This document shows, piece by piece, positions 18,918 through 31,318 of a DNA stretch of 64,000 nucleotides (the first letter of the stretch is position 1; each line of letters begins with the position of its first letter). This DNA comes from an uncultured Pelagibacteraceae bacterium (GTDB lineage: Bacteria > Pseudomonadota > Alphaproteobacteria > Pelagibacterales > Pelagibacteraceae). The DNA is taken from contig CACIRB010000002.1 of the NCBI GenBank assembly GCA_902588925.1, forward strand, positions 19,211 through 83,210. The letters are read 5' to 3'. The translations under genes and the position numbers were made by a program. Under the pieces are notes generated by a model that saw only the letters and a program-made list of their open reading frames with translations, ran no database searches and had not been told where the DNA came from.

Positions 18918-19003
18918 GCCCTCGTGGTGAAATTGGTAGACACAAAGGACTTAAAATCCTTGCCGCTTGCGGAGTGCCAGTTCGAGTCTGGCCGAGGGCA
19001 CCA
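18918..19003 (+). tRNA. tRNA-Leu (TAA), CCA encoded
   Basis: GCCCTCG...GACTTAAAATC anticodon arm with TAA, long variable arm, GTTCGAGTC T-loop, CGAGGGC A CCA; acceptor stem pairs. Confidence 0.95.
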
Positions 19004-19782: not shown

Positions 19783-19920
19783 ATGAAAAAAATTAATCCA
19801 TCAATTTTGGTAGTAATTATTTTAGTTGGAGGTTTTTGTGCGTTTAAAATTATGTCTTTTCTTGGTTGTTATGTTCGTATTGAAAACGTAGATGAGTGTT
19901 GGAAATTAACAGCTTGGTGA
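19783..19920 (+). CDS. hypothetical 45-aa single-TM small protein
   Basis: ATG...TGA, MKKINPSILVVIILVGGFCAFKIMSFLGCYVRIENVDECWKLTAW, 4 nt after nadK; below the length cut-off of the supplied ORF track. Confidence 0.5.
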   Translation: MKKINPSILVVIILVGGFCAFKIMSFLGCYVRIENVDECWKLTAW

Positions 19921-19925
19921 TAAAT

Positions 19926-19976
19926 AGTGATGGTGCCCCCGCACGGATTCGAACCGTGGACATATTGATTACAAAT
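19926..19976 (-). repeat. duplicate 3' half of tRNA-Thr(TGT): candidate att-site remnant (copy 1)
   Basis: 51-bp block matching 24723-24773 with two mismatches (19957 T/C, 19962 A/C); covers CCA end, T arm, variable loop and anticodon loop; 5' half of a tRNA absent. Confidence 0.9.
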
Positions 19977-20112
19977 TTATAGATCCAAATTTTTTTTTCT
20001 TTCGCTACTAGATAACACAATACAACACTTTTAGTATGATGAGAGTCTACTAATTATTTTTCTACTATATATCGACTACAGATAGAATTTACTTTCTTAG
20101 ATTGATCAATAT

Positions 20113-21237
20113 TTATTTATTTTTTAATAATTTAAATATTAATTGTCTCAAATTTTGATTATTTTTATTTAAATACATTTGATTTTTAATTACTCTATAA
20201 TGTTTTTTATTCCAATTGACCTGGCTGCAATTAATTAAATTATTTAAAACTCTATCTACCTCATTGTAAGTAGGTTTTTTTATAAAAAAATATTCATATT
20301 TTTTTTTATTACCATCAGGCCATCCAAAATAATGTTTGGCATCTGTATCACTATTGTGTGGCCCCAAACATGCAATCTTTTTTTTTCTACTAATTGCTTC
20401 ATAACCCATTGTAGATGTAAAAAATAAAATATTTTCAAATTGGTCTAGTATTTTATATTTTTTTTCTCGTTGATTACTTTGATGAAAAATACAATTAGAT
20501 TTAAAAATTTTTTTATAAAAATTAATTTCAATAGATTGTTTAGGATTTTTTTTACTTCTTCTAAGTAAAATATGAAGTTTTTTCTTATTTTTAGTTAGAT
20601 ATAAATTGACTAAGTTTAGTATTTTTTTATAGCCTGCAAAATCTGCTTTACCCATACCTCCTTTCATCCCTTCATGAGTTTGAGATAAATATAAAAATTG
20701 CTTACGAAACTTTGTTTTATTAATTGGAATAAGATTATTATAAAAGTGTCCATGAGAAAGATATTTAGATTTTACAATTTTTTCATATTTTGGAATATAG
20801 TATTTATTAAATACAAAGAAATAGTCACACTTTAGATTTTTTGGCCATTTTTTTTCATTTACTTTAAACCAAGTCGCTAAACGAATTCCATTAGAAACTG
20901 AAATAAAATGGATGTTCTTGAAAAAATTTTTTAATTCATACAACTGATATCTTGCTTCATTGAAAGTAATTATAATTTTAGGCGATGTGAATTTTATGAA
21001 ATTTTTAGAGTAGGTTGAAAAAGAAAAATCTAAAAACAAAATTTGCTTTAGAAATAACCAGAAATAAATTTTTTTATTATCACGTAATTCAAGAATATTA
21101 AAATCTTTTTTGATAATTTTTTTAAAAGTTGATGCATGTATTTCATCAAAAAGAAGTATTTTATTTTTCTTTGGAAAATCAAAACGAAGTCGAATTCTTA
21201 AGAGTTGATTTATATATTTCAGAATTTTTTGATACAT
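20113..21237 (-). CDS. putative surface-carbohydrate biosynthesis protein (GT-B/transferase-like)
   Basis: 374 aa; SVSNGIRLATWF, GFxY-like LYLSQTHEGMKGGMGKADFAGYKK, FENILFFTSTMGYEAISRKKKIACLGPH; resembles Leptospira-type surface carbohydrate proteins. Confidence 0.55.
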   Translation of the reverse strand: MYQKILKYINQLLRIRLRFDFPKKNKILLFDEIHASTFKKIIKKDFNILELRDNKKIYFWLFLKQILFLDFSFSTYSKNFIKFTSPKIIITFNEARYQLYELKNFFKNIHFISVSNGIRLATWFKVNEKKWPKNLKCDYFFVFNKYYIPKYEKIVKSKYLSHGHFYNNLIPINKTKFRKQFLYLSQTHEGMKGGMGKADFAGYKKILNLVNLYLTKNKKKLHILLRRSKKNPKQSIEINFYKKIFKSNCIFHQSNQREKKYKILDQFENILFFTSTMGYEAISRKKKIACLGPHNSDTDAKHYFGWPDGNKKKYEYFFIKKPTYNEVDRVLNNLINCSQVNWNKKHYRVIKNQMYLNKNNQNLRQLIFKLLKNK

Positions 21238-21284
21238 TCAAATATCTTTTAATTTTCGTTTAATTTATATTAAGCATTGATCAA

Positions 21285-21309
21285 GGTGCTTAAATTAAGC
21301 GCCTTTTTT
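21285..21309 (+). terminator. Rho-independent-terminator-like hairpin + T6 in a divergent intergenic region
   Basis: GGTGCTT-AAATT-AAGCGCC (7 bp, one G-T) followed by TTTTTT. Confidence 0.65.
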
Positions 21310-21416
21310 CCTTTATAGAATTTAGGAATACGAATGCTTATTTATTGACACTTACATTCAAAACTTACCTTATCTTTTGTTAGATTTATTGTGACTATAA
21401 TCTATATATATTAAAA

Positions 21417-23621
21417 ATGAAAAAAAAATATTACTTATTAGGTATTCAATCGTACGCAAACCACGATTCTGGTGCAAGTATTTTAAAGATCGATGACTCT
21501 AATAATATTTTAGATTTTGTAGCAATATCAGAAGAAAGATTAATAAGAAAAAAATATCCTTATACCTTTCCCATACACTCAATAAATTACTGTATGGAGT
21601 ATTTCAATTTGAAGAAATTATCGCAAATTAATTTTATCATATCAGATTGGATACGTATAAAAAGATGGCTGAGATCAGGACCAGCATATAATTATCAATT
21701 ATTTGATTATATAAAAGAAAAGCTAAACTTTGATAAAGATAAGATTATTCAAATTGATCATCATCTTGCACACGCTGCAAGTACTTATTATTCAAGTGGG
21801 TATAAAGAATCTGCAATTTTAATTGTTGATGCAAATGGCTCAGATTGTGAAACAAATTCTTTTTTTTATGGAAAAAATAATAAAATTAGTCTTTTAGATA
21901 AAAGTAAAAATCATGGTATTGGCTCTGTTTATACTGCGATTACTAAAAATATTTTAAATCTTGGTGATAGTGGTGAAGGTAAAACGATGGGTTTAGCACC
22001 ATATGGAAAGGCTAATCCAAAAATAAAGATTAAACATTCATTAAATGGTATCCACACAAACTTTTCAGATTTTATGAGAAGAATACCTTATTCGGATGTT
22101 TTAAATCAAATAAATGAAAATTATAGACCTCAAGTAATAAAAAAAAATTATCCAAAAGCTACCAAAAAAAACATCATGAAAAAAATATTTTGCGATTGGG
22201 CATATGCAGTTCAAGATCTTACAGAAAGAGTATTTTTACATCTAGGTAAAGAACTTTACAAATTAAAAAAAGTAAAAAATATATGTTTAGCTGGTGGAGT
22301 TGCATTAAATTCAGTTGCTAATAACGTTTTGTTAAAAAAAACTAAATTTAAAAATATGTTTGTTTTTCCAGCATGTTCAGACTCTGGAATACCATTTGGA
22401 TTAGTCCTTTGGGGTTATCATAATATTCTGAAACGCAAAAAAAGAATAAAATTTAATAATGCTTATACTGGAAAAAAATACTCAAAAAAAGAATTATTAC
22501 TATTTTTGAAGAAATATAATTTTGACTTTAAAGAGACAAATCCAAAAGAAATTGCTATCCTAATATCAAAAGGTTTTGTAGTAGGAAATTTTTTTGGAAA
22601 AAGTGAATACGGTCCAAGAGCACTAGGTAATAGAAGTATTATTGCTGATGCTAGAAATCCTAAAATGAGAGATTTTATAAACAAAAAAGTAAAACATAGA
22701 GAAATTTTTAGACCTTTTGCACCCTCTATTCTTGAGGAATTTTCAAATAAATTCTTTGATATTGATAATTCACCTTTCATGTTACAGGTCGCTAAAAGTA
22801 AAAAAAGTAAACTTATACCCTCTGCTATTCACGTAGACAATACAGCGAGAGTACAAACAGTTAATAAATTTCAGAATCAAAATTACTATTCTATTATTAA
22901 AGAATTTTATAAATTAACAGGTATTCCAGTAATCTTGAATACGTCTTTCAATGATGCGGGAGAACCATTAGTTGAAACACCTCAAGATGCTATTTTATGT
23001 TTTTTAAAAACTAAAATCGATTGTTTAGTATTAGACAATATTTTACTTTTTAAAAACAAACAAAAAAAAATCAAAGAGAAAATAAGAAAACTAGACGCTA
23101 CAAGATCTCAAAAAATTAAGTTAGATGAAAAAAAATTGATTAAAAAATTTACGATCAAATATTCTGAAAATGAATTTAAAAAAAGAAAAAAGAAAGAAAA
23201 TTTAAAAGCTAAGTACCATGTTTTGAATAAACCGATAAGAAAAATTAAAAATTTTATAAAAAATTTCAATTCCCAGAGTAAACCATTATTAATTATTGGC
23301 TCAGAGGATCACACAAATATATTAAGCAAAATATTTAAATTAGATGAAAATAAAGTAGCTTTTTTAGATATAAATAAAAATGATATAATTAAGAAAAAGA
23401 AAAAAATTCATAAATTTGTAAAGATTAAAAAAATAGATTTTTCAAAATATTATGAAAATATATTTATTTCTACCTTCGAGTACAATAAAGAAATTATTAA
23501 AAAATTTAAAATTAAGAAATATTTTACTCCATATGATAATTCATCAAGAAGTATTATTGATTATTATTATATTAAGAAGTTTTCTGGTAAAACAAAATTA
23601 CATTCCAAAAGTATTTATTAA
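21417..23621 (+). CDS. carbamoyltransferase, NodU/CmcH/TobZ family, with C-terminal extension
   Basis: IDHHLAHAASTYYSSGYKESAILIVDANG, GEGKTMGLAPYG, CLAGGVALNSVANN, FGKSEYGPRALGNRSIIADARNPKMRDFINKKVKHREIFRPFAPSI, ILNTSFNDAGEPLVETPQDA; ~170-aa extra C-terminal region. Confidence 0.93.
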   Translation: MKKKYYLLGIQSYANHDSGASILKIDDSNNILDFVAISEERLIRKKYPYTFPIHSINYCMEYFNLKKLSQINFIISDWIRIKRWLRSGPAYNYQLFDYIKEKLNFDKDKIIQIDHHLAHAASTYYSSGYKESAILIVDANGSDCETNSFFYGKNNKISLLDKSKNHGIGSVYTAITKNILNLGDSGEGKTMGLAPYGKANPKIKIKHSLNGIHTNFSDFMRRIPYSDVLNQINENYRPQVIKKNYPKATKKNIMKKIFCDWAYAVQDLTERVFLHLGKELYKLKKVKNICLAGGVALNSVANNVLLKKTKFKNMFVFPACSDSGIPFGLVLWGYHNILKRKKRIKFNNAYTGKKYSKKELLLFLKKYNFDFKETNPKEIAILISKGFVVGNFFGKSEYGPRALGNRSIIADARNPKMRDFINKKVKHREIFRPFAPSILEEFSNKFFDIDNSPFMLQVAKSKKSKLIPSAIHVDNTARVQTVNKFQNQNYYSIIKEFYKLTGIPVILNTSFNDAGEPLVETPQDAILCFLKTKIDCLVLDNILLFKNKQKKIKEKIRKLDATRSQKIKLDEKKLIKKFTIKYSENEFKKRKKKENLKAKYHVLNKPIRKIKNFIKNFNSQSKPLLIIGSEDHTNILSKIFKLDENKVAFLDINKNDIIKKKKKIHKFVKIKKIDFSKYYENIFISTFEYNKEIIKKFKIKKYFTPYDNSSRSIIDYYYIKKFSGKTKLHSKSIY

Positions 23622-23638
23622 ATAAAAATATATTTTTA

Positions 23639-24526
23639 TTAATTAGCAATAGCTATTAAAGTATCATTAAGATTGTTTTTTATTAAATAGCGATCATAAT
23701 TATCTAAATCATTTTTTCTAGTTATAAGACTTTTGAAAAAAGTATGTCCTCCTGGTTTATCTTTTAACATCCAGCCTAGATGATTATTTAAATTGTGCCT
23801 CTGAATTTTAATTATCTTTATGTTTTTAAATTTTGCTTTTTTAAGAAACAATGTCAAACTTTTTGGAGTATGCCAAATTAAACTTTCTCTACAAAATGTA
23901 AATTGTTTAAAATTTCTAAGATCATATTTACTAATCAATGCATCATTTGCACAAGGTACCTCAATTATTATTTTCCCCCCTTTTTTTAAATACTTTTTAA
24001 TTTTAATTAGAGTTTCTATTTGATTAGGTAAATAGTGCAATGTATGAAAAAGAGTTACTAAATCAAACTTATGTTGAAATTTATTAATTTCAGACTGAAC
24101 TTTAATTTTAGAATTTTTTTTTTTAATAAATTCTATTGATGCTTTAGATAACTCTACACCATTCAGTTGATTGGTAATCTTGTTACAAAGAAATAAAAAC
24201 TGGCCATAACCACAACCATAATCTAGAACATTTTTATTTTTTATAAATTTCTTAAAAAGATTAAAATATCTTAAATAATCATTTAATATATTTGTTTTAT
24301 TAATAAATAATTTAGAAGTTTGTTTTGGTGTTTTTACATCAAAAATTTTTTTGTAAAAATTATCATTAACTAAATATTTTTCTAAAAAAATAAATTTATT
24401 TTTAGTATCTAATAAAACAGCCGATCTCCCATTTCTTAAATTTTTTTTTATTACTTTTAATCTATTGTTTTTTATTAAACCAACTTTTTTTAAATCATTA
24501 AAAACTGGATTATTAATTTTAATCAT
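23639..24526 (-). CDS. class I SAM-dependent methyltransferase
   Basis: NVLDYGCGYGQFLFLCNK, FDLVTLFHTLHYLPNQIETLIKIKKYLKKGGKIIIEVPC. Confidence 0.85.
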   Translation of the reverse strand: MIKINNPVFNDLKKVGLIKNNRLKVIKKNLRNGRSAVLLDTKNKFIFLEKYLVNDNFYKKIFDVKTPKQTSKLFINKTNILNDYLRYFNLFKKFIKNKNVLDYGCGYGQFLFLCNKITNQLNGVELSKASIEFIKKKNSKIKVQSEINKFQHKFDLVTLFHTLHYLPNQIETLIKIKKYLKKGGKIIIEVPCANDALISKYDLRNFKQFTFCRESLIWHTPKSLTLFLKKAKFKNIKIIKIQRHNLNNHLGWMLKDKPGGHTFFKSLITRKNDLDNYDRYLIKNNLNDTLIAIAN

Positions 24527-24722
24527 TTTGATATTGTTTATTAGGTGTTAACAATAATTTCAAGTATGTGATTACTAATCAATTGGTAAAGTTTAAATAA
24601 ACATTTGTTAACAACAATAATTTTAAAATATTTTTGATTAAGAAAATCTCACAACAATCCTACAACACATAAACTTAAATTAAATATAAATGTATTAAGA
24701 ATAATAAGTGTTGATTTAATTG

Positions 24723-24773
24723 AGTGATGGTGCCCCCGCACGGATTCGAACCGCGGACCTATTGATTACAAAT
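24723..24773 (-). repeat. tRNA-Thr 3'-half repeat (copy 2, part of the intact tRNA; candidate att site)
   Basis: Matches 19926-19976, two mismatches. Confidence 0.9.
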
Positions 24774-24803
24774 CAATTGCTCTACCAACTGAGCTACAAG
24801 GGC
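24728..24803 (-). tRNA. tRNA-Thr (TGT), CCA encoded
   Basis: Reverse complement GCCCTTG TA GCTC AGTTGGTA GAGC A ATTGA TTTGTAA TCAAT AGGTC CGCGG TTCGAAT CCGTG CGGGGGC A CCA folds as a cloverleaf. Confidence 0.95.
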
Positions 24804-24906
24804 TCTTAGATCTCAAGCTTTTATACCATTAATTATATTTTTCAAATTTTATTTTCTTTGATAATACAAGTATTTTTAAAAATGGTGATTATAAAATATA
24901 TTTTTA

Positions 24907-25872
24907 TTAAAACTTGTTTAAATTTAGCCAATTTTTTTTGTAATCTTGATAAGTTTTTTCTAAACCTTTTTTTAAAGAAACTTTAGGTTTAAAACCAAAA
25001 TATTCCATTCGTACACTGTCTAACAATTTTCTTGGAGTGCCATCGGGTCTAGTAAAATCATATTCAATTTTACCTTTAAATCCTACGATTTTCTTTATAT
25101 TTTTTGCCAGTTCATTAATAGTTATCTCAATATTACTCCCAACATTAACGTGACTTGACATTGGTGTAGAAAATTTTCTAAAGGTTCTTATATCTTTATT
25201 CATTAAATGAATAGACGCTTTTGCTAAATCATCAACGTATAAAAATTCTCTTTTTGGTTTTCCACTACCCCAAATAACAACTTTTTTTGAATTATTCATT
25301 TTTGCTTTATGAAACCGATTTATCAGTCCTGGTATTACATGACTATCTTCATCATGATAATTATCACCTGGACCATAAAGGTTCGTCGGCATTATGCATC
25401 TATAATCTAAACCATATTGTCGATTATAACTTTCGCACATTTTAATTCCTGCAATTTTAGCGATCGCATATGGTTCATTTGTAGGTTCTAATTTTCCTGT
25501 CAAAAGTTTTTCTTCTTTTATGGGTTGTTTGGCCTTCTTAGGATAAATACAGCTTGATCCCAAAAACAATAATTTTTTAATACCACTTACATAAGAGCTA
25601 TGAATTATATTAGTTTGTATCATTAGATTTTCGTAAATAAAATTTGCTGGGTAATTATTATTAGCACTAATTCCTCCTACTTTAGCTGCTGCTATATACA
25701 CTTCATCTATCTTATTTTTTTTAAAAAAATTTAGAACTTTTTTTTGATCTAACAAATCAAGTTCTTTTTTTTCTTTAGTTATTAGTTCTACATTGCGCAA
25801 TTTTAAATAGCGAACTAAAGCAGATCCAACCATACCATTATGCCCTGCAATGAATATTTTGGTTTTAGACAT
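24907..25872 (-). CDS. fcl: GDP-L-fucose synthase
   Basis: [75 protein letters not shown]. Confidence 0.96.
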
Positions 25873-25895
25873 AATCTTTTCAAATATAATATTTT

Positions 25896-26957
25896 TTAAT
25901 TTTTATGATTATATGATTTACCTTTTTTTAATAAGTCGATGTCTTTTTCAACCATTTCTTTTACTAACTGTTCAAAAGAAATTTTTGGTATCCAGTTTAA
26001 TTCTTTTTTTGCTTTACTAGCATCACCTAGTAATGCTTCTACCTCTGTAGGACGAAAATATCTTGAATCAATTTTAATAATTTCTTTTCCATTATAAACT
26101 CCAACTTCATCTAAACCTGTACCTTTCCACTCAATTTTCATATCTAAATTTTTCAAAACCAACTTCACAAAGTCTCTTACAGAATACTGTTTCCCAGTAG
26201 CTATAACGAAGTCTTGTGGTTTTTTTTGTTGAAGCATTAACCATTGAACCTCAACAAAGTCTTTTGCATGACCCCAATCTCTTAATGCATCAAGATTTCC
26301 AAGATACAAGCATTCTTGAAATCCTAGTTTTATACGAGATAGTCCTCTTGTAATTTTTCTAGTAACAAAAGTTTCACCTCTTACTGGACTTTCATGATTA
26401 AATAAAATGCCATTACATGCATAAATATCGTATGCCTCTCGGTAGTTTACTGTTATCCAATAAGCATAAAGCTTCGCAACTCCGTAAGGACTTCTAGGAT
26501 AAAAAGGAGTATTTTCATTTTTTGGATTTTCTTTAGATGCTCCATATAACTCAGAAGTTGATGCTTGATAAAATTTTGTTTTTTTTTCTAATTTCAAAAT
26601 TCTAATAGCCTCTAAAATTCTAAGAGTTCCTAATGCATCTGAGTTTGCAGTATACTCAGGTTTCTCAAAAGAAACAGCAACATGACTTTGAGCTGCTAAA
26701 TTATAAATTTCATCAGGTTGAACTTCTTGAATTATTCTAATTAAAGATGTTGCATCTGTTAAATCTCCATAATGTAAAATTAATTTACGATGTTTTTCTT
26801 GTGGATCTTGATATAAATGATCAATACGGTGTGTATTTATTAAAGATGATCTTCTTTTGATACCATGAACTTCATAACCTTTTTGCAATAAAAATTCTGC
26901 TAAATAGGATCCGTCTTGACCAGTTATTCCTGTTATTAAAGCTTTACTTTTTTTCAT
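25896..26957 (-). CDS. gmd: GDP-mannose 4,6-dehydratase
   Basis: [83 protein letters not shown]. Confidence 0.97.
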
Positions 26958-27065
26958 TATTTAAAAATATTATTAAGTCGATTTTTTTATAATTAATATA
27001 ATAATCATACTATTTATTTATGTTATTGTATTATTAATTTTTTAAAAAATAGTTAAAAATTTTTA

Positions 27066-28094
27066 ATGAATAGTAATTATCAAACATCACTTGTTATAAC
27101 AACAATTAACAAGCCAAATAAAGTTATTAACAAGTACTTAGATATAACTAAAAAAAACAAAATTAACTATATAATCATTGGTGATAAAAAAACTCCAAAC
27201 TATAAAAATAAATATCCGTACTTTGATTTAAAAAAACAAAAAAAATTTAATTTTAAAATTTTTAATTTATTACCTTACAATACGTATTCTAGAAAAAATC
27301 TTGGTTATCTTATTGCAATGAAAAATAAATCAAAAATTATTATAGAGACTGATGACGATAATTTACCAAAAAAAAATTTTTTCAATAATTTAAAAATTAA
27401 TAAAACTCTTAAAGAGTTTAGTGGACCTAGATGGATAAACATACTAGAAATTTTTAAAACAAATAACAAAATTATTTGGCCGAGAGGTTTTCCATTAAAT
27501 TTATTAAATAAAAAAAATAAATATAAAGTTAAAAAAAGAAATGTTTTTTCTCCTATTCAGCAAAGAATGTGTGATGGTAATCCTGATGTTGATGCTATTT
27601 TTAGATTAACTAAAAAATTTAGAAACCATTATTTTAAGAAAATTGATATCGCAGTAAATAATAAATCAATCTCTCCTTTTAATAGTCAAAACACAGTCTG
27701 GCATGAAATTGCCTTTCCCCTAATGTATTTGCCATCTTATTGCACCATGAGATCTACCGATATATGGAGAGGATTAATTGCAGTAAGGATTTTAGAAAAT
27801 TATAATTGGAATTTAACTTTTTTAAAATCAACAGTTATACAAGAAAGAAACCCCCATGATTTGATGGATGATTTTATTCAAGAAATACCAGTTTATAAAA
27901 ATAATGTTGAACTTTGTAATGTGATTAAAAAAGTAAATTTAAGCAATAGATATAAAGATATACTCTTAAATATTTATAAGTGTTATGATCAACTAGTTAA
28001 AAAAAAAATTTTAAATAAAAAAGAGTTACCACTATTAAAAAGGTGGTTACTAGATATAAATAAAATTTATCCAAATTTAAATAAATATAAATAG
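27066..28094 (+). CDS. STELLO-like glycosyltransferase (DUF288-like)
   Basis: LVITTINKPNKVINKYLDI, LLPYNTYSRKNLGYLIAMKNKSKIIIETDDDNLPKKNFF, GPRWINILEIF. Confidence 0.7.
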   Translation: MNSNYQTSLVITTINKPNKVINKYLDITKKNKINYIIIGDKKTPNYKNKYPYFDLKKQKKFNFKIFNLLPYNTYSRKNLGYLIAMKNKSKIIIETDDDNLPKKNFFNNLKINKTLKEFSGPRWINILEIFKTNNKIIWPRGFPLNLLNKKNKYKVKKRNVFSPIQQRMCDGNPDVDAIFRLTKKFRNHYFKKIDIAVNNKSISPFNSQNTVWHEIAFPLMYLPSYCTMRSTDIWRGLIAVRILENYNWNLTFLKSTVIQERNPHDLMDDFIQEIPVYKNNVELCNVIKKVNLSNRYKDILLNIYKCYDQLVKKKILNKKELPLLKRWLLDINKIYPNLNKYK

Positions 28095-28103
28095 TAAATT
28101 AGA

Positions 28104-28820
28104 ATGAAAACAAATATTGCTATATTTACTCCAATGGCTAATGAAGAAAAAAATGCAAAAAAATTTATTTTAAAAATTTTAAAATATAGAAAGTATTTTA
28201 ATAAATTCAGATATTTTATTATATTAGATAAAGCATCAACAGATAATACTTATAAAATTGTTAAAGAATTAGAAAATAAGCATAAACCATTAAAAGTAAT
28301 ATGGTCACCAAAAAACAAAACTGTAGTTGATGCTTATGTAGAAGGGTATAAAAATTGTTTAAAAACTGATTATGAGTGGATACTAGAAATAGATGCTGGA
28401 GGAAGTCATAACCCAAAAAATATATTAAATTTTATCAAATTTATTAACAATGATTATGATTGTATTTATGGGAGTAGATTTTGTAAAAATGGAAAAATGT
28501 TAAATTCTAATTATATAAGAGATCTTTTTAGCAAAGGTGGATCTTTATTGACAAAATTTTTTTTTAATATCAATTTGTTGGATACTACTAGCGGCTATCA
28601 AATGTTTAACAAAAATGTTCTCAAAAAAATTATTAATAAGAAGTTATTATCAAGAAATAGATTTTTTCAGACTGAAATTAAAATCTATACTCGAAAACTG
28701 AATATTAAAGAAGTGCCTATCCAGTATGTTTGTCAAACTCATACTATGAATTTGTATGCAATTTTTGAATCAATTTATTTGTTACTTAAAATAAGATTAT
28801 TAAATAAAAATCACATATAG
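28104..28820 (+). CDS. GT2 family glycosyltransferase (dolichyl/polyprenyl-phosphate-sugar transferase-like)
   Basis: IFTPMANEEKNAKKFI, LDKASTDNTYKIVKEL, WILEIDAGGSHNPKNI, YGSRF, DTTSGYQMFNKNVL. Confidence 0.85.
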   Translation: MKTNIAIFTPMANEEKNAKKFILKILKYRKYFNKFRYFIILDKASTDNTYKIVKELENKHKPLKVIWSPKNKTVVDAYVEGYKNCLKTDYEWILEIDAGGSHNPKNILNFIKFINNDYDCIYGSRFCKNGKMLNSNYIRDLFSKGGSLLTKFFFNINLLDTTSGYQMFNKNVLKKIINKKLLSRNRFFQTEIKIYTRKLNIKEVPIQYVCQTHTMNLYAIFESIYLLLKIRLLNKNHI

Positions 28821-28833
28821 ATTATTTTATAAT

Positions 28834-30522
28834 TCATAGTCCTTTACAAGTTTTTTCATTCTCTAAATAGGTTTTTGTTTTTACTAAGTAAAAATAAGTA
28901 ATAAATTCTTCATTACTATCTATCATGTTATACTCAGATATTTCTTTAATACATCTTTCCAGTGAAATATTTTCTAAATTCGTTTTAAATTTTCTAGAAC
29001 GATGAATTTTAGAAGGCTGATTAATGAGAATATATTCAATTTTATTTTTTAATAAAAATTTTTTCTCAAATTCATTTAAAGCATTTTCTAAAGATTGATT
29101 ATCATGAGCAAATTGCTTGTGTATTTTTTTTCTCTCAAAAACATAGTTAGGTGTGGCTACCATACCTTTTCTATGATAAGTTGGGATTTTACTAAAGAAA
29201 GCAAAATTTCCATCAGTACTATCAAATACTTTCGTTGATTTATCAAATTTTTTTTCATCAAGCATTTCAGCAAACTTCATAACTGCATAAGGTTCTTTTT
29301 TTTTATAATCGATATTTCCATAAGGTGCGTTGTGATTATATTCAATATTTTTACGTATATATATTGAATTATAAAAAATCAGTGGAATAGTAATAATAAT
29401 AAGAATGTAAAAAAAAGTTTTCTTAAAAATGAAGTTTCTAAAAAATGTTTTTTTTAAAAAAAATTTTAGATAATATAAAAATAATGAAATTGATAATATT
29501 GCAGCATTTAGATGTACAACGAAATACCATCTTCCCACAGATCCAATTTTAGTAAATAAAATTTGATATGAAGTATGTAAAAATATACCAATTAAAAGTA
29601 GCCACACAATATTTAGATAACTTTTTACTTTAAATGAAATATTTTCTTTTTTAATAAATTTAGACAATAAAGTGCAACTAATTGCGCATATTAAAGTTAC
29701 GATTAGAGCCAATATCCCATATTTTATTTGACGTGTTAAGAGGGTTGATAGGACTATTTCTTTATTAATATTTGGAAAATTTGATTTTATAACACCAGAA
29801 AGCGGTACTGGAGATCCAGTTATATAATAAATTAAGACCACATATCCGCCAACCATTAAAATTGGAGGTAAAGTTAATGCTAATGCTTCTTTTATTTTTT
29901 TTTGAACCAATGTACTTATTATTAAAAAACCATGCAATGGTGAAATTAATAAAACTAAATCTAAACGTGACAAAGCTATTAAAGATGAGATCATTCCAAT
30001 ACTAAATGCAATTAGAATATTTATTTTATCTTTTATTATAAATTTATAGATGACATAATAAATGTAGCCTAGAAATAGAACAACTGACAAAGCAGTTTCC
30101 ATATACCAAAAAAAATATTTTGTAGCTAAAACTGCAAACAAAAATGTAGAAATAATCTGTATAAATCTATCATCATATATTCTACTAATTTTATAAAAGA
30201 ACCATATTGAAATTATAAAAAAAATAAAAAGAAATATGGATAATATATAAACAATTATTGCCAGGTTCTCAGTTATTGAAAAACTAATTGCTACAAATAC
30301 AAGCCACAGTGGATGAAATCCATTAGAGGGATATAAACCGTTCCAAGAAAAAAATCTCAGGTCAGATGCTTCACGACCATATACAAAATAATAAAAAGTA
30401 TCACCTGGGGTTCTAGATAAAGTATAAATAGGTGGTTCAAGAAAAGAATATAGAATATAACTAACTAGAAAAAACAATACTATTATAAATAAATAAACTT
30501 TTTCTAATTTGTGGTCTATCAT
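28834..30522 (-). CDS. multi-TM glycosyltransferase-like (GT39/PMT-like) membrane protein
   Basis: 562 aa, many hydrophobic segments, RTPGDTFYYFVYGREAS...GLYPSNGFHPLWLVFVA, soluble C-terminal region. Confidence 0.65.
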   Translation of the reverse strand: MIDHKLEKVYLFIIVLFFLVSYILYSFLEPPIYTLSRTPGDTFYYFVYGREASDLRFFSWNGLYPSNGFHPLWLVFVAISFSITENLAIIVYILSIFLFIFFIISIWFFYKISRIYDDRFIQIISTFLFAVLATKYFFWYMETALSVVLFLGYIYYVIYKFIIKDKINILIAFSIGMISSLIALSRLDLVLLISPLHGFLIISTLVQKKIKEALALTLPPILMVGGYVVLIYYITGSPVPLSGVIKSNFPNINKEIVLSTLLTRQIKYGILALIVTLICAISCTLLSKFIKKENISFKVKSYLNIVWLLLIGIFLHTSYQILFTKIGSVGRWYFVVHLNAAILSISLFLYYLKFFLKKTFFRNFIFKKTFFYILIIITIPLIFYNSIYIRKNIEYNHNAPYGNIDYKKKEPYAVMKFAEMLDEKKFDKSTKVFDSTDGNFAFFSKIPTYHRKGMVATPNYVFERKKIHKQFAHDNQSLENALNEFEKKFLLKNKIEYILINQPSKIHRSRKFKTNLENISLERCIKEISEYNMIDSNEEFITYFYLVKTKTYLENEKTCKGL

Positions 30523-30568
30523 TAAAATTATAAATACTTAATTGTTAATCTTTATTTTAGTTTAATTT

Positions 30569-31318
30569 TTATTTAACTGCCTTTTTTTTTAAATAACAAA
30601 GATGATGAAATACAATCGCTGCACTATTTGAGATATTTAAACTGTCAATTTCTTTATTAATATTTATTCTAACAAAAAAATCTGCATATTTACTTGTATG
30701 CTGTCTCATTCCAAATCCTTCTGAACCAAATAAAAGAATATTATTTCCTCGCCACTCTATATCAGTAAAATCCTTTTGACCTTTAGCATCAAAACCATAA
30801 ACCCAGAAATTTTTTTCTCTTAAATTTTTTAAAGTTGAATTAATATTAGATACTTGAAAGATATTTACATGTTCCATGCATCCGCTTGCTGATTTATACA
30901 TCAGTTTACTATCTCGTGGAAAATGTCTTTCTTTAATTATTAAACCGTCAATATGAAATGACGCAGCATTCCTTATTAATGATCCAATATTTCTTGGATC
31001 ACTAACCTCATCAATACAAACTAATGTTAAGTTATTTTTACCTTTAATGAATTGTTTAAGCTCTGGTTGATCTAAATGCTCAATTTCAGCAACATAACCA
31101 TTATGCATTAGTTGTTCTTTAGAAGTATACTTGTCTAATTCTTTTTTAGATTTAAAGTAAATTTTAACATCTTCTAAAATATTTTTATTTGGATTTTTTC
31201 TATGAATATTTTTTTTAGATTCTTCTGTCAAAAAAACTCTCAAAACCTTTCTTCTAGGGTTTCTAAGAGCTTCAATAACGGCATGCTGACCAACAATGAA
31301 AAAAGATGATTTATTCAT
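30569..31318 (-). CDS. rlmB: 23S rRNA (guanosine-2'-O-)-methyltransferase RlmB-like
   Basis: VGQHAVIEALRNPRRKVLRVFLTEE, CIDEVSDPRNIGSLIRNAASFHIDGLII, FGSEGFGMRQ, LNISNSAAIVFHH. Confidence 0.92.
   Translation of the reverse strand: MNKSSFFIVGQHAVIEALRNPRRKVLRVFLTEESKKNIHRKNPNKNILEDVKIYFKSKKELDKYTSKEQLMHNGYVAEIEHLDQPELKQFIKGKNNLTLVCIDEVSDPRNIGSLIRNAASFHIDGLIIKERHFPRDSKLMYKSASGCMEHVNIFQVSNINSTLKNLREKNFWVYGFDAKGQKDFTDIEWRGNNILLFGSEGFGMRQHTSKYADFFVRININKEIDSLNISNSAAIVFHHLCYLKKKAVK

Follow-up and report, generated by a model that had tools for sequence, protein, structure and literature searches.

Stacked insertions and putative integrase-less cassettes at a tRNA-Thr gene of SAR11 bacteria

Cis-mobilizable elements (CIMEs) and the ssrA genomic islands of Dehalococcoides are integrase-less units that are flanked by attachment (att) sites, stacked behind a tRNA or tmRNA gene and accompanied by recombinase-bearing relatives. 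The Dehalococcoides islands lack an integration module and accrete in tandem, with a serine recombinase (PMC3146451). Additive flexible islands with tRNA-fragment repeats are described for 'Candidatus Actinomarinales' (PMC7771536) and 'Candidatus Methylopumilus' (PMC10872708), and a prophage of SAR11 is reported from tRNA-Val (PMC7542561). The locus considered here lies in a stretch of 64,000 nucleotides, referred to as the window, from an uncultured Pelagibacteraceae bacterium (GCA_902588925.1, contig CACIRB010000002.1, positions 19,211 to 83,210), and comprises a tRNA-Thr gene and a displaced copy of its 3' half. Taken as a whole, the arrangement is probably best explained by a tRNA-Thr attachment core with stacked, eroded insertions and with integrase-less cassettes moved in trans. 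As read from its sequence, the window locus is worn and composite, made up of three or more insertions that carry surface-glycan genes.

The SAR11 arrangement would work like known cis-mobilizable accreting islands, and the cassette system itself is apparently undescribed. No description of SAR11 cassettes or their iterons was found in the open-access collection that was searched, subscription papers, including the one on tycheposons, being outside that scope. Two CIME features are present in the window and in the cassettes, namely attL/attR-like flanks, formed by tRNA-Thr 3'-half copies at the unit ends, and the lack of a detected integrase gene within the unit; the matched iteron arms make it plausible that these att sites are functional and that the units accrete with a helper. 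Compared with the Dehalococcoides islands, the SAR11 cassettes are far smaller (mostly 0.3-2.3 kb) and are characterised by a fixed leader, a fixed gene start and matched iterons of tyrosine-integrase type. The Actinomarinales and Methylopumilus islands share the tRNA-repeat cassettes, and the Actinomarinales island encodes envelope sugars, but hosts and tRNAs are different, and a leader, an iteron code and a fixed gene start are not described in the passages of those papers covered here.

Integron cassette arrays also consist of short few-gene units, mostly on the same strand and each with a recombination site. An integron was nevertheless rejected, as a tRNA half with iteron arms forms the core of the SAR11 recombination site, neither intI nor attC is present, and the complete genome G085 has no extra integrase. 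Tycheposons of Prochlorococcus are cargo and satellite elements that are anchored at tRNA genes in marine bacteria, and the SAR11 elements with an integrase and a primase (end class L2, below) resemble the satellite type. In contrast, the window lacks element-encoded hallmark genes, and a deep-branching tyrosine recombinase beside the tRNA, as encoded by tycheposons, is absent from the window and from the cassettes, a tyrosine recombinase occurring only in the L2 relatives. In having an integrase, a primase and an excisionase-like protein of weak score, these relatives (7.7-17 kb) also resemble phage satellites of the phage-inducible chromosomal island (PICI) and phage-inducible chromosomal minimalist island (PICMI) types. 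Genes of these kinds are absent from the window element; a PICI-like module of integrase, regulator and primase is found in the relatives L020/L120 and L139.

An earlier note on this DNA had described an integrase-less element bracketed by an intact tRNA-Thr and a duplicate of its 3' half. The underlying direct repeat is present at 19926-19976 and 24723-24773 (51 bp, two mismatches; a repeat finder stretches the match to 60 nt at 90%), and the full tRNA is confined to the right copy, ARAGORN calling tRNA-Thr(TGT) there alone, at 24803-24728 on the minus strand. When the whole assembly was searched with this gene, the left copy was the sole other strong match (E = 3.1e-18; next best 3.3e-8). 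Between the repeats lie, as had been stated, three open reading frames (ORFs); they encode 374, 734 and 295 aa, and none is an integrase by Pfam or tblastn. The suggested tRNA-anchored insertion site is borne out by 80 nadK loci fetched from other SAR11 genomes, mostly single-cell assemblies, in which the tRNA-Thr halves were mapped. The proposed empty-site check succeeded: six loci (L010, L012, L015, L016, L055 and L056) read nadK, a 45-aa ORF, a single tRNA-Thr and rlmB, and the tRNA ends 227-233 bp from nadK. In the window, the small ORF lies after nadK at 19783-19920 on the plus strand and represents the chromosomal flank; it directly abuts tRNA-Thr in empty sites, and its end (...CWKLTAW and stop) precedes the single tRNA-Thr in L010, L012, L015, L016 and L056. 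Other genomes hold different cargo between the same repeats, and the same three genes are not found everywhere: cargo at tRNA-Thr nearly always differs, 248 ORFs falling into 166 clusters.

Contiguous nadK and full tRNA-Thr were available at 63 loci. Six of these are empty; one or more 3'-half copies are present in 27, and at least two in 6. Within the genus sample of 115 genomes (the window's own and 114 requested at a completeness of at least 90%), 3'-half copies occur in at least 28 of the 114 others. The copies begin at tRNA positions 22-31 and mostly finish at 76-81, that is, from the anticodon region to just past the CCA, and are near-identical across about 50 bp. The anticodon-to-3' half of SAR11 tRNA-Thr(UGU) would serve as the attachment core for several element classes. 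A new insertion would land beside the intact tRNA-Thr and displace the earlier 3'-half copy outward, so that units would stack as an array. Pooling of 123 loci (the window and 122 others) gave 70 units, 69 of them besides the window's, cut between successive 3'-half copies; clustering of their ends resolved three classes. L0 contains 56 units, and L1 about a dozen of 3.8-9.8 kb (13 left ends). L2 comprises the complete units of the window and L139, together with left ends alone in L020 and L067.

The L0 units are standardised in layout: a tRNA half, a leader of about 94 nt with two 11-bp iterons, an ORF that runs from about nt 95 toward the tRNA, matching iterons and the next tRNA half. They hold one to four genes, and 52 of 56 span 0.3-2.3 kb. 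An ORF starts 71-150 nt from the core in 49 of these 52 small units, in most of them at nt 93-97, and the direction is toward the tRNA for 91 of 92 ORFs. The two leader iterons stand about 11 bp apart and are followed by a -10-like TGATAAAGTTTT box ahead of the start codon; the right end has two or three iterons and then TGTTGATTTTATTG at the tRNA. The iteron letters vary among units (GGTAACACT, CGTCACACT, GACAACAAT, TACACACT, GACCGCACT), whereas left and right iterons agree within a unit: the mean longest shared string is 9.51 within and 6.43 between units, and none of 20,000 permutations reached the observed value. Such matching is what integrase arm sites would be expected to display. PF00589 searches of 50 and 113 genomes found no integrase inside the cassettes, and cassettes were located by a leader model in 35 of the 113 genomes of the genus. 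At tRNA-Thr they form arrays with as many as three members, and the same class occurs in other SAR11 genera at tRNA-Met (L194) and at tmRNA (L195, L196, L198, L199), where L196 has up to four tmRNA 3'-end copies within 2.7 kb. From their shared anatomy, integrase-less cassettes can be taken as a real class.

Among the cassette cargo, one cluster comprises 28 prepilin-like ORFs. Many cassette ORFs open with an almost constant signal peptide, MKKLLGIVVLGLLLSG, followed by unrelated sequence, which suggests that secreted domains are shuffled behind a common 5' end. This near-identical peptide with unrelated mature parts was seen in L011, L027, L035, L070, L075, L132, L135, L137, L146 and L163. 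Runs of prepilin-like genes (FTLIELLVVVAIIGILAAVGVVAYNGYT) occur in L151, L192, L030 and L037. In L181, two native pilin genes of G085 have an upstream region that partly matches the cassette leader, and L192 (G232:C16:16532) has a strong L0 leader (E=1.4e-20) and a partial core, on a contig whose tRNA-Thr is 18 kb away.

How the cassettes move is most likely through a lambda-like tyrosine integrase from a phage or satellite, which would act in trans by binding the iterons as arm sites and recombining the tRNA core. A different process, in which homologous recombination between the tRNA-Thr repeats, or between the flanking nadK and rlmB, swaps cargo, would need no site-specific recombinase and would make the integrase-less units relics bounded by old repeats. 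The near-identical cores of about 50 bp suffice for RecA-type exchange, many filled loci lack a recognisable repeat, and envelope islands of marine bacteria are often swapped in this way, as replacement islands (PMC10872708). This process is nonetheless unlikely as the explanation, since a conserved leader and right end inside each unit, a gene start fixed at about nt 95 and iterons matched between the ends would not be expected from homologous recombination on a tRNA repeat. The earlier note had offered three origins: a decayed element fits the window and mobilisation in trans fits the wider integrase-less family, but homologous recombination alone leaves the conserved, matched iteron arms unexplained.

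Integration in trans by phage or satellite integrases is suggested by the same leader geometry ahead of integrase genes at other tRNAs of SAR11. Occasional integrases of 315-345 aa are found at tRNA-Met, tRNA-Arg, tRNA-Ser, an Asn-type tRNA half and tmRNA, and many of them start about 90 nt from the target, behind two 11-bp iterons similar to those of the cassettes. In G142 (L202), the best match to the cassette iterons in a 7.5-kb locus lies in the integrase leader itself, with CGGTCGCACTATGGTCGCAA 33 nt before the integrase start. The complete genome G113 (L205, 1510-4690) has inverted tRNA-Met 3'-half copies 3 kb apart, whose 80-nt leaders are essentially identical; at one copy the leader stands ahead of an integrase and at the other ahead of a 503-aa ORF that is not an integrase. 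L0 cassettes may have arisen from integrase-first elements in which cargo took the place of the integrase gene, and may now be helper-dependent. At tRNA-Thr itself, the integrase (450-451 aa) of the L2 relatives starts about 210 nt from the gene and is accompanied by the primase and the excisionase-like protein. Integrase and primase were seen directly in L020/L120 (17 kb) and L139 (7.7 kb), and by contig linkage within one genome in L067/L121. L2 elements end in tandem 11-bp iterons of the ATCGACTACA / TTGACTACA type. Restriction-modification genes occur in the larger L1 units and in other large islands at tRNA-Thr.

Several observations weigh against this account. In 20 of the 63 contiguous loci, nadK and tRNA-Thr are separated by over 600 bp of additional DNA in which no copy is recognisable, so that other routes exist. 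The third core copy in the window, described below, is short and degenerate. An iteron matrix applied to the integrase leaders is clear in L202 and L205, borderline in L122 and not significant in the others, and the whole-leader model R1 gives no significant match to the integrase leaders, so that kinship between cassettes and integrases rests on geometry and, in some, on iterons. Support for the helper is indirect because the searches yielded no integrase at tRNA-Thr that has iterons of the cassette type. Moreover, the source genome (40 contigs, 62% complete) could hold an integrase elsewhere; its sole detected PF00589 protein is a 325-aa Xer-like recombinase on a different contig. Searches of the INPHARED phages with the tRNA-Thr core and 23 bp of right end gave, among the matches listed, only phage tRNA-like sequences of at most 88% identity and no pelagiphage attP. 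The L2 integrase has no homologue in that set, and a 326-aa integrase has distant homologues only, mainly in Pseudomonas and enterobacterial phages.

A helper of another kind would be the single 325-aa Xer of the host, which is present in nearly every SAR11 genome and might move the cassettes itself, in the manner of a resident integron integrase. Most genomes, and usually those that bear cassettes, yield only this Xer in PF00589 searches, and it is the only tyrosine recombinase found in the complete genome G085, which has a three-cassette array. There is little chance that it is responsible, however. The arm sites of phage-type integrases, unlike Xer sites, follow the pattern of tandem 11-bp iterons at each end, and integrases of this type lie behind leaders of the same geometry at other tRNAs in SAR11. 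The genus-wide PF00589 search also indicates that most SAR11 genomes have a single Xer-like recombinase of about 325 aa and not a XerC/XerD pair.

Set against these classes, the window can be read from its left repeat to the 5' side of its tRNA. The displaced 3'-half copy (19926-19976, minus strand) is the first core copy and is followed at 19978-20107 by the left arm of an L2 element, with the iteron TATCGACTACA at 20070-20080. A profile of L2 left ends (L020, L067 and L139, window excluded) matched 19978-20107 in nhmmer with E=1.3e-16, the only significant match in 64 kb, and the arm is identical to that of L067 at 86 of 98 positions. The cargo consists of a 374-aa ORF (20113-21237, minus strand; no Pfam match, a surface-carbohydrate protein in the earlier note), a 734-aa carbamoyltransferase (21417-23621, plus strand; PF02543 and PF16861) and a 295-aa S-adenosylmethionine methyltransferase (23639-24526, minus strand; PF13489). 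A homologue of the carbamoyltransferase, 35% identical, occupies the same site in L031. Beyond the cargo, a degenerate third core copy, ATGTGATTACTAATC, marks the junction of two units at 24566-24580 on the minus strand, by sequence reading, directly 5' of a cassette leader located by nhmmer. This leader remnant (24581-24644, plus strand) belongs to the L0 class and has lost promoter and gene; the L0-leader profile matched 24584-24638 (E=3.8e-7), and the independent leader model R1, run on the whole source genome, returned only the place at 24581-24644 (E=1.3e-6). The leader is joined straight to its own right iterons: the cassette right end (24645-24722, plus strand), with iterons TCACAACAATCCTACAACACAT and then TGTTGATTTAATTG adjoining the tRNA, was matched over its length by the L0 right-end profile (E=2.3e-5). 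Each of the two L0 profiles had no other significant match in 64 kb. The intact tRNA-Thr(UGU) at 24728-24803, with 5 bp of repeat, forms the target site (24723-24803, minus strand).

The 5' side of the tRNA is occupied as well, whereas rlmB lies about 40 bp from tRNA-Thr in most relatives. The segment at 24804-24891 is the end of an element inserted there, by its likeness to the same position in L138 (76 of 86 identical; 0 of 500 shuffles), where the island terminates in a displaced 5' half of tRNA-Thr. The window's 5'-side island (24907-30522) encodes an epimerase, a GDP-mannose dehydratase, glycosyltransferases and a membrane protein, and no far-end 5'-half copy is recognisable in it. Across 19900-30700, no remnants of satellite proteins (integrase, primase) were detected, the matches there being rlmB and one chance match of 18 residues. 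The outer unit would thus consist of the left arm of the integrase-plus-primase, phage-satellite-like class, its mobility genes gone and its interior taken by three envelope-glycan genes. The inner unit would be an integrase-less cassette that lost its gene, and both have presumably lost mobility.

On this anatomy, it is scarcely credible that the window holds one intact integrase-less element exactly between the 51-bp repeats, for all that two clean repeats enclose three genes. The two repeats belong to different insertions because one is followed by an L2 left arm and the other is preceded by an L0 leader and right end, with the third core remnant just inside it. The L2 arm, the L0 remnant and the 5'-side element end together give at least three insertions. 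The description of one element bracketed by two repeats must accordingly give way to ends from at least two insertions, with an occupied 5' side; it had overlooked the third core with its leader and right end (24566-24722) and the 5'-side element end. Other candidates were also rejected: an integrative and conjugative or integrative and mobilizable element, since the window unit contains three glycan-type genes only and no conjugation or mobilisation genes, and a prophage, since its three ORFs include no phage structural genes. That an assembly or single-cell amplification chimera made the duplicate, as the incomplete 40-contig assembly and the many single-cell relatives might allow, is extremely improbable, the same arrangement being found in dozens of assemblies, including the one-contig genomes G085 and G093, and the window ends matching real end classes.

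SAR11 are among the ocean's commonest bacteria and keep swapping genes despite their streamlined genomes. A readable leader, a fixed gene start and matched arms provide a concrete, searchable candidate mechanism, with a model that detects cassettes in any SAR11 assembly. A broader cassette economy on SAR11 tRNA and tmRNA genes is an even bet: standardised integrase-less cassettes of one to four genes, each with a two-end iteron 'address' that names a phage or satellite integrase, the ancestral integrase having been replaced by pilin-like or secreted cargo behind the same leader. If this holds, the iteron address would predict which phage integrase moves which cassette. The cargo, which is pilin-like, secreted or envelope-glycan and includes restriction systems in larger units, suggests that the tRNA-Thr site takes part in phage-host conflict.

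Insertions on the other side of tRNA-Thr are also found among relatives, 5'-half copies being present in five genus genomes. Elements there leave a displaced 5'-half copy of 41-47 bp beside rlmB (L143 in G284, L134, L138, L141 and L142) and supply the tRNA-Thr gene with a new upstream region; in L143, a 499-aa integrase lies near the tRNA-Thr 5' end. A second integration site beside the tRNA-Thr site is indicated by L125 (G046, the same genome as L012), which has prophage-like genes and a 347-aa integrase immediately before nadK, with three iterons GTGCATNTGCA, near the position of tRNA-Leu (window 18918-19003).
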